In this document: positions 23,853-32,637 of the stretch, one piece after another | How positions within the stretch are numbered: position 1 is the first letter of the stretch | Layout of the letters: every line of letters begins with the position of its first letter | Origin: Pollenia angustigena | Taxonomy: Eukaryota; Arthropoda; Insecta; Diptera; Polleniidae | Assembly: GCA_930367215.1 (NCBI GenBank) | Contig: OV884057.1 | Span: 205,457,621-205,521,620 of the forward strand | Direction of reading: 5' to 3' | DNA: 64,000 nucleotides | Notes under the pieces: generated by a model | What the model saw: only the letters and a program-made list of their open reading frames with translations | Told to the model about the DNA's origin: nothing | Databases searched by the model: none | Translations under genes and position numbers: made by a program

Positions 23853-23968
23853 ATAGTCGATCTTTATTACGCATCTTTATTACGATGATATTTGCCTATT
23901 AGCTCACAGCTTCTCAGATCTTGCATCAAATCTTCGAAATATAACAACAGGTGCAGCTGGACTTAAGA

Positions 23969-24214
23969 CACAAAGCATACAGAGATGAAAAAAATGACGT
24001 ATGAAAAATGCCCAAATCATTTGTGAGGGCAGCTTTCGAAGAAAAAGAAATGAAAATGTTTTTTTATTGTAAAGTTGCAATGTTTAAAAACAGACCGCTA
24101 CTATCAACACGGATTGCGTAATCAAAACAAAAAATGCAAAAAGGGCAGCTTTCGAATAAAAAGACAGAAAAAACACAATATTTTCTGTCTCGTGACGCCT
24201 CTGTATGCTCTGTG
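23969..24214. mobile_element. CACARAG-family MITE, perfect 8-bp TSD
   Basis: CACAAAGCATACAGAG (23969) is inverted at 24214; the duplication ACTTAAGA is perfect (23961-23968, 24215-24222). It lies within the LINE fragment. Confidence 0.9.
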
Positions 24215-24366
24215 ACTTAAGATTAAAAAAAAGCCAAAGCAGTGCAAGTTGATGCGAAGTCTCAGAAATTATTTACAATAAGAAATAATTTCCAAAAATG
24301 GCGAGTCAAATGAATACATTGACAACCGTGTACAGGAAGCGTGACAAACTTTCGGTCGTTTAAGAC

Positions 24367-24549
24367 TATTGTAATCTCAGTATTAAATTTCGATGAATAA
24401 AAGGCAAGACGTTTTATAAAAAACAATTAAATATTTATTGAAAACAATAAATAATATTTAGAAACGATTTCATATACAATTAATATTCAACTGAAAATTT
24501 TTGAGAACATTTTCTGAAACTTATTTTTCTGATTGCTTTTATTTCAACA
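24367..24549 (-). repeat. copia 3' LTR (183 bp)
   Basis: On the element strand it begins TGTTGAAAT and ends ACAATA. It is intact, unlike the 5' LTR. Confidence 0.9.
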
Positions 24550-24565
24550 CCCCCTCTCAATCAGA
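24550..24565 (-). other. copia polypurine tract
   Basis: GATTGAGAGGGGG on the element strand directly precedes the 3' LTR; second-strand primer. Confidence 0.8.
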
Positions 24566-27500
24566 TAATCCAATAACATTTCTAAAGTTTTGAAAACGAA
24601 ATGTATCTGTAGCTTTAGTAAATATATCTGCTATCTGTTCACTTGTTCCAATATGCTCTATCTTGATTTTATTACTGTCACGAACGAAATGATGTGTTAT
24701 ATCAATATGCTTTGCACGTTTACTTCCCAAATTTGTTGCCATTCTAATACAACCACGATTGTCTTCATACAATATAACTGGTTTATCTTCCGGCATGATA
24801 TTGAGATCATGAAGTTTTCCTTTTAACCAAATAGCTTCCGCATTAGCCAAACTCAGAGCCATATATTCAGCTTCACTAGAAGATTTTGCTACAGTTTGTT
24901 GTTTTTTGCTGCACCATGAAACAGTACATCCAAAAACTTTAAAAACATATCCGCTCACTGATTTTCGATCAGTTGCATCTGATGCCCAATCAGCATCAAC
25001 AAACCCAATAATGGGTTCATTATTTGTGACTTTTAAATGTAGCTTCATCAGCGATGTTCCCTTTAAATATCGAACAATTCGTTTTAAATGCTGCCAATGA
25101 ATTTCATTTGGATTTTGCTGGAACCTTCCCATATAGCCAACAGGATAGCAAATGTCAGGTCGAGAACATAACATTATGTACATTTAACTACCAATTAGCT
25201 CTCTATAAGGTTGGCTGCATTCTGATTTAAGGTTTTTAGTTAATTGCAATCCTTTTTCCATTGGACTTTTAACTGTAGTGCATTCAACCAGTCCAAACTT
25301 TGATAATATTTTTTCAATACCTGCATTTTGCGAAATTAAAACTTCTTTTCCCTTATGTTGGATCTTCATGCCAAGAAAAAATTTAAGAACTCCGCAATCA
25401 GTCATCTCAAAACGTTTTGATAAATCTTTCTTAAACTTTTCAATACTTGTTAATCTACTACCAGCAATAAGTAGATCATCAACATACATTATAATAATTA
25501 GATCATCATTATGGTTTTCATTTTGTTTTTTTATAAAGGCAATAATCATGTTTGGATCTTTTAAATCTCAGTGAAAGAATAAAATTGTTAAATTTCATAT
25601 TCCAACATCTTGGAGCTTGCTTTAAGCCATACAATGATTTATTTAATTTACAAGCCATTATATCATTTGCTTGAACTCCCTCTGGTATTTTCATGAACAC
25701 GTCTTTTTGCAGATCACCATGTAGAAAAGCAGTCTTTACATCTAAATGATGAAAAATATATTTACGATGCAAACCAACAGCTTACACTACACGTATTGTT
25801 GTCAATTTAGCTACAGGTGCATACGTTTCAAAGAAATCAATACCTTGCTTTTGTTGAAAGCCTTTTGCAACCAGTCGAGCTTTATATTTTGTTGGATTGC
25901 CACTTTCATCTAATTTAATACAAAAAACCCATTTCGAATTTAAAAGTTTAATATTTTTAGGAGCTTCTACGATTTTCCAGACTTGATTTTTGTCCATGGA
26001 CTTGAGTTCTTCAGAAACTGCTTGCAACCATTTATCAGCATCATCAAGTTTAATATCACGATATGTTTCTGAAATTGTTTTGTTTGTAACAGAAACTTCA
26101 AACCCAGTTATATAATTTAGTAGTTTTCTAGGCGCGTATCTTTCACGATTAGTACGACGGACTGGAACAGCTGCATCAGAGAGAGTTTCATAATCTTCAG
26201 TTAAATCTACATCATCATTATCAACTATAACTCTGTTATCAGTATTTAATTCATCTACAGTTTCATCTTCGCTGATGTCAGTTCTTGCTACTGCAACTTC
26301 ATTTTCGTCATATATTGATTCAGTTATAGATAGAGCACCATCACATTCATTTTCCCCCTCTTGCTCATGTCTTCTTTTAACAGTAACAACATCATTTAAA
26401 GTTCCGTTGTTTAATTGCATGAAGGAAAAATGTTTTCTTCAAATTTTACATCTCTTGCAATTATAACTTTTTGTTTTTCCATGTCCCAAAGACGATAACC
26501 ATTGGGAACATATCCAACCATTACACACTTTTTACTTCTTGCATCAAGCTTTTTGCGACACTGACGTGGAATCCAGGCATATGCTTTACAACCAAAAACC
26601 TTTATTTTTTTAAATGTTGGCTTGACACCTGGCCACATCTCTGCGGGGGTCCTAAAATTATCAAGACATCTTGTCGGACAACGATTAATTAAATAAACAG
26701 CCGTCAAAGCAGCTTCAGACCACATCGCTTTCGGAGCATGAGACTGAATTAACATTGTTCTTATCTTCTCTGTTATTGTGCGGTTAAACCTATCCGCAAC
26801 TCAATTTTGTTGAGGAGTGTACGGCACTTTCGGTTCTACTTGTATACCTTTGTTTTTGTACCACTCATGTTGTTGTTTAGATAAGTATTCTGTACCTTGA
26901 TCAAATGTACGCTTTGAAATAAAGTTTCCACTAAACATGCTTGTAGCAAGGGCTTCATATTCTTGCAAAGATTTGAAAACGTCAGAATTTTTCTTGATTA
27001 GGTATATCATCGCAAAATGTGAAAAGTCGTCTATGAAGCTTACGAAATATTTATATCCGTTCCAAGTAATTGGATCAAAAGGTCCACAAACATCAGAATG
27101 TATTCTTTCCAAAACCCTTTTAGCTCTAACACGATTATCATCAAAAGGTTCTCTACACTGCTTACCTTCAATACACACGTCACAAAAACCAAGCGAATTT
27201 GATTTCAGACAAAGTCCACTAATAAGATTAGCCTTTTCTATCTTTCGAAGTGTATTTTCACCAATATGCCCAAGTCGACGATGCCATAAGACAACATTAT
27301 CTACAGTATTTAATAATGCAGATGAACTGTTTACATTAACGGTTAGTGAATATAAATTTTCACATAAATTGGCCGTAGCAATTACTTCTTTGTTCTTCAA
27401 AATAACCGCTTTATCATTCAAAAACTTTACTACTATATTGGCATTAGTAAGTTTTCTAACTGATAGCAAATTATCACGTAAATCAGGAATATAAGTACTT

Positions 27501-29160
27501 CTTTAATCTCAAGTGGTACACCTTTGTTACTTATGCCGTTTATTTCACCATATTGTTTTGCTATTATAAATTCCTTGTTTTTGGCTACATTAATTTCAAC
27601 CGGATTTTTCATCTCCTTCATATATTTAAAACACCATTTTTCATTTGACATATGATCACTTGCTCCAGAATCCAACTTGAAAATAATATGTTTGCTGTTA
27701 TCATTACACTTTTGTTTTAGTTTACTGTTAACCATGAAGCAAACACTTTTATTTTTAACCATTTGCACTTCAGAGTTTTTACAATCACGGGCCTGATGAC
27801 CAAACTTGTTGCAATTGAAGCATTTACCATTGAACTTCTTGAACTTTTTGGACTTCTTGCCAACAAAACCAGTTTTCTCTTCAATATCTTCTTCATATCG
27901 GTCAGATATTTTTGCTTCCTCTGACATTAACCTCTCTTTAACTAAATTAAACGTTAGCTTACCCTCTTCAACATTTTACAGTGCAGTTACCAATGGATCA
28001 AATTTTTCTGGGAGGGTTAAAAACAATTGTGCTAATAAATCAGAGTCTTCAATGGTAGCGCCGGTCATCTTCAATTGTCGTATCAAGTTTTCAAATGTCA
28101 TTATGTGGGCAATCACATTATCACCTTTGTTCATACGCATTCTTTATAATTTTTTACGCAATAAAAGTTGATTCTCCAACGATTTCTTTGCAAACACAGA
28201 TTGTAAGCTATCCCACATATGGGCACTTCCAAGATTGTAAACGGGACATTCGCACACGTTTATATTGACAAAACTGTAAAAAACAACCTGATTTTCATTT
28301 TTTAAATTAATGATTCTTTTAACTCTCAATAAGCTCTTTAATTTCCGCAAATGAAATTTTTCGCTTACTGTCGAGGTTTCCGAGATAATTGCAAAAAACC
28401 AGTGATTGTAAACGGGACAAAAAACGGAAGTGGGTTTTAAGGGGTAACCGTTTAAACAGTGATTTCTGCGAAACCTGACACAATATTTTATTGGGATTAA
28501 TTTTAAAATGTTGCGTACTAATGTGCCCTAAAAATGGTTTCGATTTCAAAATAAAATATGAATTACATTTTTTTAAATAAATTGTTAAAGAAATTGTAAA
28601 CGGGACAATTTTTCCACCATGATTTAAAATTTTTTTATGTTGCTATTAATATTCCTTTTTATAAGAAACTTAATAAAAAATGTTTTTCAGATCATAAATA
28701 TGCCTTAGATTAGAATATTGTTGTTCCAAATGCATATTTTCTAATATACACAAGTATGTGCTAAAAGTTGTAGTACTTCGTTTACCATTTATCTTTTTTT
28801 TCGAATCAATTAATATTTACGCATATATTAAAAAAATATAAACAATTCTCTAAATAAATCTTGAAAAGAAAAAATTTTTTTTTTCCATTTGTTGTGGTTG
28901 ACGTTTTTTTGGAAATAGCCATATCTTTTGCCGTATTCTTTTCGCGAACATAACACAAACAATCTGAATGTAGAAATCCAGCCAACCGATATTTTTCTTT
29001 CTAATCGTTCTTCATAAAATTGCCATTCAGTCCTGCATCTAAGGGTGGATTGCCGGTTAGGACTTCTAATAATCCCAAAGAGTCCAAATGCAATTTTACG
29101 CGAAACTGCCAATCATTGAAACCCGAGCCATTAAACTGCGGAATTTTCGGAAGATTCTTT
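24557..29160 (-). pseudogene. copia gag-pol polyprotein, broken
   Basis: Domains in order on the minus strand: Gag start (PQFNGSGFNDWQF, about 29145) running to NTAKDM, then across an insertion to WDSLQSVF (28215); CCHC knuckle CFNCNKFGHQARDC (about 27800); protease DSGASDHMS (about 27660); integrase with the HRRLGH zinc region and GPFDPITWNGYKYFVSFIDD (27300-26800); RT with HLDVKTAFLHGDL (25750) and YVDDLL (25480); RNase H to 24557. At least three frameshifts (near 25530, 26415, 27450) and three in-frame stops (near 25184, 25780, 26801) inactivate it. Plus-strand open frames here are shadows. Confidence 0.92.
28221..28920. mobile_element. ~700-bp insertion in copia gag
   Basis: The Gag frame stops at ...NTAKDM and resumes at WDSLQSVF exactly across this segment; ATAT flanks both sides (28217-28220, 28921-28924). 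Imperfect inverted ends GGGCACTTCC and GGAAATAGCC. Inside, the 12-mer GTAAACGGGACA occurs three times (28238, 28406, 28597). Type unknown. Confidence 0.7.
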
Positions 29161-29161
29161 T

Positions 29162-29176
29162 GAGTCGCCCATAACC
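29162..29176 (-). other. copia primer-binding site (tRNA-iMet half-molecule type)
   Basis: The element strand reads GGTTATGGGCGACTC directly after the 5' LTR. Drosophila copia uses GGTTATGGGC, complementary to an internal part of initiator tRNA-Met. Confidence 0.88.
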
Positions 29177-29283
29177 TATTGTAATCTCAGTATTAAATTT
29201 CGATGAATAAAAGGCAAGACGTTTTATAAAAAACAATTAAATATTTATTTATTCAGCAGCCTTCGATGGCTGCGAGTGTAAGA

Positions 29284-29344
29284 CGGCAAAACTATCTGAG
29301 GAGATCGAGTGGTTGCGATCGAAACATGTCATAGTAACCTGCCG
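29284..29344 (+). ncRNA. Type-I hammerhead ribozyme, repeat 1
   Basis: Stem I outer CGGCA (29284-29288) pairs TGCCG (29340-29344); stem I inner ACTAT (29291-29295) pairs ATAGT (29331-29335). Core CTGAGGA (29296-29302) matches CUGANGA. Stem II GATCG/CGATC (29303-29307, 29316-29320) has an 8-nt loop. GAAA (29321-29324) is followed by CATG and the cleavage triplet GTC; predicted cut after 29330. Stem III is minimal: CATG is self-complementary, suggesting cleavage as a dimer, as reported for minimal type-I hammerheads. All invariant core positions are present. Confidence 0.82.
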
Positions 29345-29847
29345 GCCAGGGTTCAACCCCTAGCCACGTCAAGAATGAAAGATTATCAATAACAATTTTA
29401 ATTAATTTTCATGTTGTAAAATTCCTTTCTTCATAAAATAATTTAATGAAAATTAAATTTGATGAACTTAAGCCTAATTAAAAATATTGAAAATTTGGAT
29501 TAAAAACCATAAATAGTTCAACAAAATAACCACAATACTAATTACTGTTAAAGCTAAGGCACGAGCTCTATGTGTACATTTGTCCTTCAAGTTGTGCTGA
29601 AAAAGGTCAACAGAAAAGAGAAAGACAAAATGAAAAAACAAAAAAATGTACTTGGACTTCAAGAAAAAAATTCTTGACAAAGTACGAAAAAACAGAAGTA
29701 AGGAAAAAACATGTAAAATCAATTAAAATGGATAATCATTCAGGAAAAGCAAATTTCGATCTACCAAATGTTAAAAATACAAATTTGGTTTAAGGATTGA
29801 TATTTGACTATTGACGTCAGCAGCCTTCGATGGCTGCGAGTGTAATA

Positions 29848-29908
29848 CGGCAAAACTATCTGAGGAGATCGAGTGGTTGCGATCGAAACATGTCATAGTA
29901 ACCTGCCG
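29848..29908 (+). ncRNA. Type-I hammerhead ribozyme, repeat 2
   Basis: Same structure as the first copy with every paired and core base conserved: CGGCA 29848-29852 with TGCCG 29904-29908, ACTAT 29855-29859 with ATAGT 29895-29899, core 29860-29866, GAAA 29885-29888. Predicted cut after 29894, 564 nt from the first cut. Confidence 0.82.
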
Positions 29909-30133
29909 GCCAGGGTTCAACCCCTAGCCACGTCAAGAATTGAAAGATTATCAATAACAATTTTAATTAATTTTCATGTTGTAAAATTCCTTTCTTCATA
30001 AAATAATTTAATGAAAATTAAATTTGATGAACTTAAGCCTAATTAAAAATATTGAAAATTTGGATTAAAAACCATAAACAGTTCAACAAAATAACCACAA
30101 TACTAATTATTTATTTAAAACAATAAATAATAT

Positions 30134-31595
30134 ATTCAACATTTTTCATTTTTCGAATTTATTCTATTGTAGTGTATGCATACTTATGCACATCACTGTA
30201 CTATATGTAACATAAAACCCTAATACAAAAATTGTTAAAGGTGTTATGATACTTGCTATCAAGGTATATTTACACAAGGTTAACTCGTTGGCCCATATGT
30301 TTGTCAGCTGTTTACCCCAGTTGGAACCCAAACGTCAAATTTCGTGTACATGAGCCAAAATTTGTACATGTGTGCATGTGTTTTATATGAAAACAATTTT
30401 GACAACTCGGTTCCACTCGCTTATTTTTATAGAGCAGCATGTCTACACTCCCCGATGAGTCTACCTTGTGTTAATGTACCTTGCTTGCTATTTTTTGTAT
30501 TGGATTTTTTTAGGATTGACTGAATGAAACAACAAATGCGAGAAAGAACAAGAAATACAATTTGATAAACAAACCCTTTTTTCTGATTGACATTTCTCAT
30601 GTTTATTTTTTTCTTTGACCAAAACAAAAAAAAAATGGTAAAAGCTTGGGCAGATGAAACTATTTGGTTTTTGATCAGTGAAATAAAGCAGGTGCCCTTC
30701 ATATGGGATTTCAAATCATAAATTTTCAATTAAAGAAAATACCCCGATGTAATTCGTAATATTTTACATTATTTGCATTAAATTTTATTGTTTAAAAAAA
30801 AAAATTGTTTGTGATTCCAAATAAAATGTAAACAAAACAAACAATACTGCCCACGTTTTTTGCCCACAAAAACCCGTCAAAAAGCTAAAAATCGCAAAAA
30901 AAAAAAAAGTTAAAACCCGCTACTTTCGATAAAAAACTAAAAAAATTGGCAACAGTGCTAACAATTAATCTGGAAATGTCAATTTTAAGTTAAAAATTTT
31001 TGTATTTTTTTGACAGTCTTAGATTATTTATCGATAACACATGTATATTTGTTTGACATTTCAAGATTTTTTTATGATATAATCATACTCTTTACACTTA
31101 GTCAGTTTTCCTATGCAAATATATTTGCACTGTTCTCCAATATAGAAAAAAATACAAAAAATAGCAAGCATCATAACAGCTTAAGTTTAATTTAAATAAA
31201 AGAAATTTATGTTAAGTCAGCAGAAATTGTCACAACAGAAATATTTGTAAGTGTTTTAAGAAAATTAAGTTCAATAAAATTTATTTTTAGCGAGAAATGC
31301 TGACTAATAGAATATTTTAGTATATAAGCTAGTATAATTATTCAATAAAGGCAGAATTAATTCAACTCTCAAATAGACTTGTTTTACTTCTCAAAAATTT
31401 CGTGCATTTTAATGCTCGGCAAAAAGCGGCAGAAGTGCTAAGAAAATACTGAGCTAAATTTCAGTTATGTATTTTATAGTCTATAAAGTAATTTCTGAAA
31501 AATTGAAGGAATAGAACTATTACAAAAAAGCTTTATAAAATACATAACTGAAATTTAGCTCATAGAATAAATTCGAAAAATAAAAAATGTTGAAT
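30134..31595. mobile_element. 1.46-kb element in copia LTR, 34-bp inverted ends
   Basis: ATTCAACATTTTTCATTTTT (30134) continues for 34 bp and is inverted at 31595 with one mismatch. ATAATAT is duplicated (30127-30133, 31596-31602). No transposase is visible. It contains the MITE 30260-30483 and a foldback at 31450-31561 (GAGCTAAATTTCAGTTATGT and its complement). hAT-like by TSD length; inference. Confidence 0.75.
30260..30483. mobile_element. CAAGGTATATT-family MITE, perfect 8-bp TSD
   Basis: CAAGGTATATTTACACAAGG (30260) is inverted at 30483; CTTGCTAT is duplicated (30252-30259, 30484-30491). Sister of 15064-15285. Confidence 0.9.
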
Positions 31596-31936
31596 ATAAT
31601 ATAAAGTAACCTTCGGAAGGAAATAATTCCCAGTTTTTACAGTAAATAATATTTGGAAACGATTTCATATACAATTATTTTTCAACTGAAAATTTTTGAC
31701 AAAATTTTCTGAAACTTATTTTTCTGAATGCTTTGATTTCAACAAAGACCCATTTGGAATTTATCTTCACTCTCTTAGCCCACAAAGTTAAAAATATTTA
31801 ACACAAATGTGAAGTCCACTCTCCTCTACGGTTGCGAGACATGGAACGCTACCCCTCTAGACATGCAGAAGATCCAGGTGTTTGTGAATCAATGTTTTCG
31901 CAGGATATTGCGAATAATCTGGCCTAGAGTAATGCC

Positions 31937-32373
31937 CAAGGCCCATTGAAAAGGTCTGCGCAAGAAGCCTGATGATCATTGTTTTCGTTCTTTTGAGCTT
32001 TCAAAAGTTGTTTAAATACACGTTTTTTCCTTTTGCATTGTATATGTGGTAGTAAGTTTTTGACAGCTTAAAAGAAAAAGTTTTTTGTTTTTGTACAAGT
32101 AAGCCACAAAGTATACAGAGATGAAAAAAGTGACGTATGAAAAATGCCTAAATCATTTGCGAGGGCAGCTTTCGAAGAAAGAAAACTATTTTTGTTAGTG
32201 AAGTGACTGTGCGTAAAAACAGGCCGCTACTATCTACACAAATTGCATAATCAAAACAAAAAACGCAAAAAGGGCAGCTTTCGAAGAAAAAGACAGAAAA
32301 AAACACAATATTTTCTGTCTCGTGACGCCTCTGTATACTCTGTGAAGTAAGCAGACCTGATAGATGGGCCTTG
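31937..32373. mobile_element. CAAGGCC-family MITE in LINE, perfect 8-bp TSD
   Basis: CAAGGCCCATTGAAAAGGTC (31937) is inverted imperfectly at 32373 (GACCTGATAGATGGGCCTTG); GTAATGCC is duplicated (31929-31936, 32374-32381). It is interrupted by the MITE 32105-32344. It is nearly identical to the target of the gypsy insertion at 37475. Confidence 0.9.
32105..32344. mobile_element. CACARAG-family MITE nested in CAAGGCC MITE, perfect TSD
   Basis: CACAAAGTATACAGAG (32105) is inverted at 32344; AAGTAAGC is duplicated (32097-32104, 32345-32352). Confidence 0.92.
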
Positions 32374-32392
32374 GTAATGCCCAACAACAGGC

Positions 32393-32637
32393 CACAGAGT
32401 ATACAGAGGCGTCACGAGACAGAAAATATTGTGTTTTTTTCTGTCTTTTTCTTCGAAAGCTGCCCTTTTTGCGTTTTTTGTTTTGATTATGCAATTTGTG
32501 TAGATAGTAGCGGCCTGTTTTTACGCATTGTCACTTCACTAACAAAAACGTTTTCCTTCTCTTTCTTCGAAAGCTGCCCTCGCAAATGATTTAGGCATTT
32601 TTCATACGTCACTTTTTTCATCTCTGTATACTTTGTG
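32393..32637. mobile_element. CACARAG-family MITE, opposite orientation, 7-bp TSD
   Basis: It begins CACAGAGTATACAGAGGCG and ends ATACTTTGTG; AACAGGC is duplicated (32386-32392, 32638-32644). It is nearly a mirror of 32105-32344, only 48 bp away, so the two could form a long hairpin. Confidence 0.9.

Follow-up and report, generated by a model that had tools for sequence, protein, structure and literature searches.

The window, as we call the whole 64-kb stretch of Pollenia angustigena DNA analysed here, contains a copia element on the minus strand, whose open frames (24557-27927) carry RVT_2, integrase and gag-pre-integrase domains. The left LTR of this element is uninterrupted and represents the empty site; the right LTR lies in three pieces on the minus strand (29176-29250, 30108-30133 and 31639-31744). 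Between the first two pieces we found an insertion of 857 bp, interpreted below as a retrozyme, which comprises 1.5 copies of a 564-nt unit and has the following landmarks.

29251..30107, plus strand: insertion (comparison with the sister LTR, 9-nt duplication, other genome copies)
29242..29250, strand not assigned: target-site duplication, left copy (LTR alignment)
30108..30116, strand not assigned: target-site duplication, right copy (LTR alignment)
29253..29544, plus strand: direct repeat A (repeat alignment)
29817..30109, plus strand: direct repeat B (repeat alignment)
24366..24549, minus strand: left copia LTR, empty site (LTR comparison)
29176..31744, minus strand: right copia LTR, split by the retrozyme and a second insertion (LTR comparison)

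The left flank (29176-29249) is identical to 24366-24439 of the sister LTR at 74 of 74 positions, and the alignment of both LTRs gives a target-site duplication of 9 nt, TATTTATTT, which is present in two copies around the element and in one copy in the sister LTR, there with its last base changed. The first two or three bases of the insertion (ATT) lie outside the unit, and the first two bases of the right duplication copy also continue the unit, a case of microhomology. A preliminary description of this locus had already placed the element in a copia LTR, which the uninterrupted sister LTR bears out, but had given the duplication as 10 nt.

Repeats A and B have a period of 564 and are 98.98% identical over 293 columns; when aligned from 29254 and 29818, 289 of 292 columns agree. 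The three differences among these 292 columns (1.0%) are located at 29282/29846, at 29940 (an insertion) and at 29514/30079, and they spare the ribozyme core. The two repeats of about 290 bp, each with a full hammerhead core, had been reported before, and we find the motifs at the places claimed. The non-coding core between the repeats is present as well, but it measures 272 nt (29545-29816) and not 274 bp. In comparison, the copia LTR pieces differ at 9 of 198 compared positions (4.5%, with 14 positions counted twice), and the smaller divergence of the repeats fits a retrozyme that arrived later than the copia element.

We could also observe other repeats in the window. The right copia LTR holds a second insertion at about 30134-31638, with 41-bp inverted arms (30127-30167 / 31562-31602, 95%), of which the right one stops short of the very end, and with a 14-nt flanking match containing one mismatch (30120-30133 / 31639-31652). 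A fold-back element occupies 32105-32637; its arms of 166 and 81 nt are 96-99% complementary, and a related copy is found in part at 23964-24221. Further downstream (37539-57900), two nearly identical gypsy-like elements are arranged in tandem, with three LTR-like copies (37539, 45582 and 54532) at a spacing of 8.0 and 8.95 kb.

Paired hammerhead motifs and their predicted folding

Repeats A and B each carry a type-I hammerhead motif with a minimal stem III. In both motifs, stem I is made up of two parts, Ib (CGGCA/TGCCG) and Ia (ACTAT/ATAGT), and stem II (GATCG/CGATC) is a perfect helix of 5 bp closed by a loop of 8 nt. The remaining elements are CTGAGGA, GAAA, the palindrome ACATGT and GTC. 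They display the CTGANGA, GAAA and NTH core and stems I-III with stem I open, as is characteristic of the type-I class. Self-cleavage is predicted from the motif to occur after GTC, at C29330 and C29894.

29284..29344, plus strand: hammerhead A (motif, descriptor scan; core conserved and stems covarying in other copies)
29284-29288/29340-29344, plus strand: hammerhead A, stem Ib
29291-29295/29331-29335, plus strand: hammerhead A, stem Ia
29296-29302, plus strand: hammerhead A, CTGAGGA
29303-29307/29316-29320, plus strand: hammerhead A, stem II
29321-29324, plus strand: hammerhead A, GAAA
29324-29329, plus strand: hammerhead A, palindrome ACATGT
29848..29908, plus strand: hammerhead B, with predicted cleavage after C29894 (motif, descriptor scan)
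29331..29894, plus strand: unit between the cleavage sites, 564 nt, predicted monomer RNA, linear or circular (fold, other copies)

A hammerhead descriptor applied to both strands of the 64-kb window matched just twice, at A and B. As a control, the descriptor was applied to 400 windows of 64 kb generated by a first-order Markov model; it produced 8 loose matches and no strict one, where strict means a stem II of at least 5, a stem III of at least 2 and a stem III span of at most 8. The preliminary description had proposed a search with the Rfam covariance models and had named a miss as counting against its reading. A miss is what we obtained: no hammerhead reached the gathering threshold in the window, and none appeared in 28900-30500 at E<=10. 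Stem III is probably too short for the Rfam models; it has 2 bp with a 2-nt loop here, or forms a 6-bp palindrome in the dimer.

Because ACATGT is self-complementary, a stem III of 6 bp can form between two ribozymes. For the double-hammerhead dimer the modelled energy is -30.6 kcal/mol, whereas two monomers lacking stem III have -12.8 kcal/mol each. Folds more stable than the hammerhead are predicted for the monomer (-14.4 vs -12.8 kcal/mol) as well as for the dimer (-35.0 vs -30.6 kcal/mol). For the 564-nt circle we calculated -119.6 kcal/mol, compared with a mean of -88.8 (sd 6.5) in 100 dinucleotide shuffles (z -4.8), and the circle of the opposite strand is predicted to fold better still (-136.4 kcal/mol, a value without shuffles). 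With 59% of its bases paired, the circle remains below the 'above 70%' given in the consulted sections of PMC4918200.

No coding sequence was detected in the unit among its open frames and in Pfam up to E=10. A coding core was rejected since 405 of 2000 shuffled units likewise contain an open frame of 83 codons, and the frame found here lacks a Pfam match in the same range; its two matches to solved structures (E 0.26 and 0.97) were taken as chance. It had also been suggested that the repeats contain a pol III B box. The sequence in question, GGTTCAACCCC, fits loosely, the window holds 18 B-box matches where 21.4 are expected, and no match to the A-box motif is located inside the element. A pol III promoter is therefore unsupported. 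ARAGORN, run with bacterial settings, found no tRNA in the element.

Hammerhead-like sequences were also looked for in viral data. Matches were found in 116 IMG/VR stretches, one of which (L054) passes when stems of at least 4 are required; it is a single viral-contig match with hammerhead-like stems. A closer hammerhead pattern gave 34 matches (32 viral and 2 bacterial stretches), none with a stem II over 2 bp, and phages gave no match.

The repeats of about 290 bp round a non-coding core give the window copy some resemblance to an element with LTRs. Plant LTR retrozymes, as described in the consulted sections of PMC4918200, likewise have two hammerheads in direct repeats, a non-coding core and a monomer RNA from double cleavage, which is predicted here. 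The element could accordingly be a plant-type LTR retrozyme or a TRIM mobilised by an LTR retrotransposon. However, the plant elements described there have type-III hammerheads, a primer-binding site, a polypurine tract and 4-bp duplications, none of which is found here: by eye, no tRNA primer-binding site follows repeat A and no polypurine tract precedes repeat B, the duplication is 9 nt long and not 4, and other copies vary in unit number and in their 5' ends. We rejected an LTR retrozyme on these grounds and consider such an origin extremely unlikely.

Copies in the genome and constraint on the ribozyme

A search of the 1.37-Gb assembly gave 136 element matches in 40 scored of 2526 candidate places. 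The pattern CTGANGA-N14-24-GAAACATGTC matches the genome 26,532 times, against 1 match for the reversed control. On this sequence evidence, the retrozyme is present in thousands of copies in the genome of P. angustigena. Other insertions and tandem arrays, which such a search had been expected to reveal, are many, and their 3' ends are recurrent. We examined 38 loci chosen by similarity to the window copy and 7 more among the first 100 pattern places, 6 of which were picked for showing both strands; L197-L204 were delimited automatically. The units mostly measure 560-578 nt (range 532-591, 112 units).

These repeats have the properties of animal non-LTR retrozymes, that is, small non-coding tandem repeats with type-I hammerheads in many copies, without primer-binding site and polypurine tract (both judged by eye) or other LTR features, and with duplications of more than 4 bp. 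The elements described in the consulted sections of PMC7229834 (Cervera and de la Pena 2020) share all of this and the low GC content, and the axolotl retrozyme resembles ours in its weak helix III, which favours dimers. In contrast to the published units of 150-450 bp, which is a usual size and no requirement, the units found here are longer, and their stem III is the self-complementary ACATGT. Hammerheads in dispersed or tandem non-coding repeats are also known from schistosomes and newts. The newt ribozymes work as dimers (PMC6155905, in part), and the schistosome repeats hold a tRNA sequence (PMC4918200, in part), unlike the element studied here in the ARAGORN search.

At the locus level, the 13 core positions showed 0 of 559 minority letters (165 ribozymes, 43 loci), compared with 89 of 2838 (3.1%) in the rest of the 118-nt region. 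In the same 43 loci, loop II had 0 of 344 and the stems 48 of 1290. The 165 ribozymes match the 118-nt region over nearly its full length, a requirement that leaves out a second subfamily. Single units do carry changes: ACATGT is intact in 163 of 165 and GTC in 164 of 165, and core or stem III changes were seen in 4 of 24 distinct sequences, once each. In 16 of 43 loci, the outer stem Ia pair is disrupted. Core bases that vary freely among copies, named in the preliminary description as evidence against a ribozyme, are thus not what the loci display, and its retrozyme-like element with dimer-type hammerheads is supported.

The pairing of the stems was examined in the 18 untruncated of the 24 distinct sequences (6 were cut at arm ends and left out); these sequences are related and hence do not represent independent events. 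In stems Ia and II, 94.4% of the cells are paired, a value that none of 500 shuffles reached, and slid structures pair in at most 44.4%. The covariation score was 0.286 vs 0.139 in shuffles (0 of 500 as high), and two-sided changes occur at three pairs, two in stem I and one in stem II. Two of the five covariation measures stayed within the shuffles, namely 'pairs changed on both sides' (350/500) and 'further pair types' (483/500). Stem Ib pairs in 75.6% of the cells, because it is shifted in the second subfamily, and 88.1% pair overall when stem Ib is included. Between subfamilies, the stems change together. We conclude from these comparisons of copies that the ribozyme is under constraint.

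The second subfamily (L205, L206, L210, L211 and many pattern places) has about 86% identity, with stem II as GATTG/CAATC and stem I as GCCCT/AGGGT.

Head-to-head loci, their outer ends and the template

We numbered the unit from the cleavage site and grouped matches of at least 300 nt into clusters, leaving out L198, L199 and L201-L204, which overlap other loci. The resulting 49 clusters comprise 28 complete two-armed loci, 16 single-arm loci, 2 complex ones (L171 and L207) and 3 that are cut by the end of the fetched stretch. Both orientations and both ends are in view in 30 loci, of which 28 are purely head-to-head. All 28 two-armed loci are ordered minus-then-plus, with the 5' ends central and the 3' ends outward, and a pure plus-then-minus locus does not occur among the 49 clusters. 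The first 100 listed pattern places, taken unselected, formed 46 clusters (19 minus, 17 plus, 10 minus-then-plus and 0 plus-then-minus), so that 10 of 10 mixed-strand clusters have the same order.

The outer 3' ends cluster in two zones, P1 at unit positions 205-230 and P2 at 150-190; zones and limits were fixed after the ends had been seen, and the ends were placed by local alignments that include a few nt of microhomology. The positions in the window that correspond to these zones, and the hairpins predicted beside them, are as follows.

29491..29506, plus strand: P2, second 3'-end zone, unit 161-176, inferred reverse-transcription start (outer ends of other copies)
29541..29556, plus strand: P1, main 3'-end zone, unit 211-226, inferred reverse-transcription start (outer ends of other copies)
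29495..29521, plus strand: predicted hairpin 1, between P2 and P1 (consensus fold, 40 locus majorities)
29532..29548, plus strand: predicted hairpin 2, ACAATA/TATTGT in the consensus, one mismatch here, P1 on its 3' side (consensus fold)

Of the two-armed loci, 23 of 28 pair one P1 with one P2 end, and none (0/28) has the same zone at both ends. In the paired loci, the P1 ends lie at 212-226 and the P2 ends at 158-176 in 21 of 23, with P1 on the left side in 11 and on the right in 12. If each end chose its zone independently, the chance of 23 mixed pairs out of 23 would be about 1e-7. The other five two-armed loci (L188, L190, L191, L196 and L197) combine P1 with an end outside both zones, at 8, 97, 198, 404 or 563, the last one (L190) adjoining the cleavage site. 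Of the single arms, 11 end at P1, 4 at P2 (the locus L178 contributes two of these) and 1 at 123; the window copy is such a single arm ending at P1, at its right end in repeat B. The pairing of zones also holds in three complete loci of the second subfamily (L205, L210 and L211).

The predicted hairpins occupy unit positions 165-172/184-191 and 202-207/213-218, with a modelled energy of -4.8 kcal/mol for the 40-locus consensus, a figure without a shuffle control. The sequence leading up to P1 is AC-rich: A and C account for 83% of the terminal 24 nt of the element, a proportion reached in 9 of 564 circular windows.

Exact, duplication-like matches of at least 9 nt between the outer flanks were found in 24 of 28 two-armed loci, where the rate among 756 mismatched flank pairs is 3.6%. 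For the single-arm loci the figures are 9 of 15, against 4.3% of 210 mismatched pairs (L200 and L206 are not included, and the lengths include microhomology with the element ends). As these duplications surround whole two-armed loci, both arms were inserted together.

The units of one locus are very similar to each other, irrespective of the arm. For 112 full units from 40 loci (the second subfamily is absent from this set), the mean distance was 0.0050 within the same arm (138 pairs), 0.0045 between opposite arms of one locus (68 pairs, 9 loci) and 0.0329 between different loci (6010 pairs). The within-locus mean was smaller than the between-locus mean in 24 of 24 multi-unit loci, and the nearest unit (n=96) belonged to the own locus in 74 cases and to another in 5, with 17 ties. 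Unit lengths are mostly uniform per locus, with L160 (567-585) and L178 (570-591) as exceptions, and arms reach 9.2 units. One RNA, copied round repeatedly by two cDNAs, would account for the likeness of the arms.

Homogeneous tandem units are also typical of satellites, and it is conceivable that the arrays arose at the DNA level from a simple satellite by unequal crossing-over, gene conversion or the insertion of extrachromosomal circles; conversion could homogenise opposite arms too. We consider this very unlikely in view of the duplication-like matches around 24 of 28 two-armed loci, the recurrent outer zones with one of each in 23 of 28, the head-to-head order of every mixed cluster in the unselected sample and the single insertion in the copia LTR, whose sister site is empty.

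The form of the RNA template is less clear-cut. In 8 of the 24 multi-unit loci, some outside unit is closer than the within-locus mean, which weakens the case for a circle a little and leaves room for a homogeneous linear source. The same retrozyme and enzyme could then use an uncleaved multimeric linear transcript of a genomic array, with cleavage as a side activity. Near-identical unit arrays exist and could be transcribed, and the consulted sections of PMC11167929 report that insertion by a Penelope protein in vitro is independent of ribozyme activity, with unprocessed RNA as the dominant substrate. On the other hand, opposite arms are as alike as the units of one arm, and an arm may comprise as many as 9.2 units, for which one circle is the simplest source, and the ribozyme core has been kept. 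A linear template therefore seems rather unlikely to us, and a circular RNA is the likely mobile intermediate as judged from the copies. Circularisation of animal retrozymes has been shown in vitro with RtcB ligase, and circles of up to >1000 nt are mentioned (PMC7229834, in part).

Penelope-like elements and a proposed route of insertion

The retrozyme is not a Penelope-like element, as no coding sequence, and hence no reverse transcriptase or GIY-YIG endonuclease, was detected in its unit, but it looks inserted like one. We therefore turn to the Penelope-like elements of the same genome. A GIY-YIG search gave 19 matches in 150 scored of 493 candidates, and two loci (L212 and L213) were read. 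In L213 (C1:122165600-122169900), an open stretch of 778 codons carries reverse-transcriptase (RVT_1) and GIY-YIG domains; the frame is interrupted within the endonuclease domain, where GIY-YIG scores 22.2 bits against a cut-off of 22.6. L213 contains three pseudo-LTRs, two in direct orientation (99.5%) and one inverted, and a minimal hammerhead-like motif occurs in all three. The motif is also present in the related locus L212 (GIY-YIG 28.1 bits), where stem II is altered but remains paired. In both loci, the hammerhead-like motif has one extra base before stem II.

L213 shares the layout of the retrozyme loci. It is arranged head-to-head, with an overlap of about 20 nt at the inverted junction, and its left arm stops 32-35 nt before the right one, which leaves a tail on one end only. 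A duplication-like match of 10 nt, AAATTATTTT, links its flanks; at least 10 nt are also shared by 18 of 1000 random pairs of stretches. The end zones, determined by hand, lie about 99 and 131-134 nt after the cleavage site, compared with about 150-226 nt in the retrozyme. This tail rule was seen in one Penelope locus (L213) of the two read. There is no clear homology between the retrozyme and L212 or L213 (best blastn E 0.013).

Published Penelope-like elements have comparable features. The consulted sections of PMC3846280 describe copies with inverted pLTRs, duplications of 8-10 bp and, optionally, a tail of 31 bp on one inverted pLTR. In those of PMC11167929, a Penelope protein cleaves and extends both strands of AT-rich targets in vitro, and synthesis begins at two neighbouring internal sites of an AC-rich stem-loop. 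The AT-rich targets, 8-10-nt duplications, head-to-head parts, partial tandems, one-end tail, two adjacent internal starts (putative in the retrozyme) and minimal hammerheads in these two sources are all matched by the retrozyme, which differs in lacking coding sequence. The footprint of Penelope-type insertion (head-to-head parts, a tail on one end and a short duplication) is thus found in the retrozyme loci, with 5 of 28 exceptions at one end. Many copies here are two-armed and head-to-head with paired end zones, an arrangement that the consulted sections of PMC7229834 do not describe for animal retrozymes.

For rotifer Penelope elements, the head-to-head arrangement has been attributed to self-priming on an antisense template, a proposal based on palindromes at inverted junctions (PMC3846280, in part). 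The overlap at the L213 junction would agree with it. However, self-priming alone does not predict the second recurrent outer end, P2, and the 28 inverted junctions of the two-armed retrozymes are mixed, 16 with an overlap of 1-6 nt and 12 with a gap of 1 to 387 nt. Priming on both strands, moreover, was observed in vitro (PMC11167929, in part). We regard self-priming as an improbable source of the inverted arms.

Instead, we consider it probable that a non-LTR retrozyme is inserted by Penelope-type machinery, with both DNA ends priming on one, probably circular, RNA. The element would be a non-autonomous non-LTR animal retrozyme of 564 nt with a palindromic minimal stem III, whose ribozymes could act as a dimer. 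Multimeric transcripts would self-cleave, and the monomer would probably be ligated to a circle. A Penelope-like protein acting in trans may make a staggered cut, offset by about 9-14 nt, in an AT-rich target. Both DNA 3' ends would then prime cDNA synthesis at internal sites of the RNA, with P1 serving one of them and P2 the other, at a distance of about 50 nt across the two predicted hairpins. Each cDNA may circle the template several times, and both would stop at variable points. Joining of the two cDNAs in the centre, with little or no homology, would yield head-to-head tandem arms between target-site duplications. The window copy would be a single-arm product started at P1.

A more specific reading is put forward tentatively. 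The retrozymes may be the 'SINEs' of a Penelope-like element, with a protein dimer that binds a single RNA circle at two start sites separated by about 50 nt, so that each cut DNA end is extended from a different site in repeated tours. In the consulted sections of PMC11167929, the start site was equal on both strands, a result that the reading of one site per end would extend or contradict. That no two-armed locus has the same zone at both ends is a rule absent from those sections, and it can be tested with the assay used there. We found no description of the end rule or of head-to-head retrozymes in the parts of the literature consulted, and the end rule may be in print elsewhere.

A role of Penelope in retrozyme mobilisation has been suggested before (PMC7761336, in part). 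Both kinds of element carry hammerheads, occur in tandem and co-exist, which made Penelope a strong candidate mobiliser in the consulted sections of PMC7229834. The way in which animal retrozymes move has been a matter of conjecture, and the insertions described here bear a Penelope-like footprint. The identity across opposite arms provides genomic evidence for one RNA, most simply a circle, that was copied repeatedly in a single insertion. If the rule of one site per end is true, it would explain both the optional tail of Penelope elements and the formation of retrozyme arrays.
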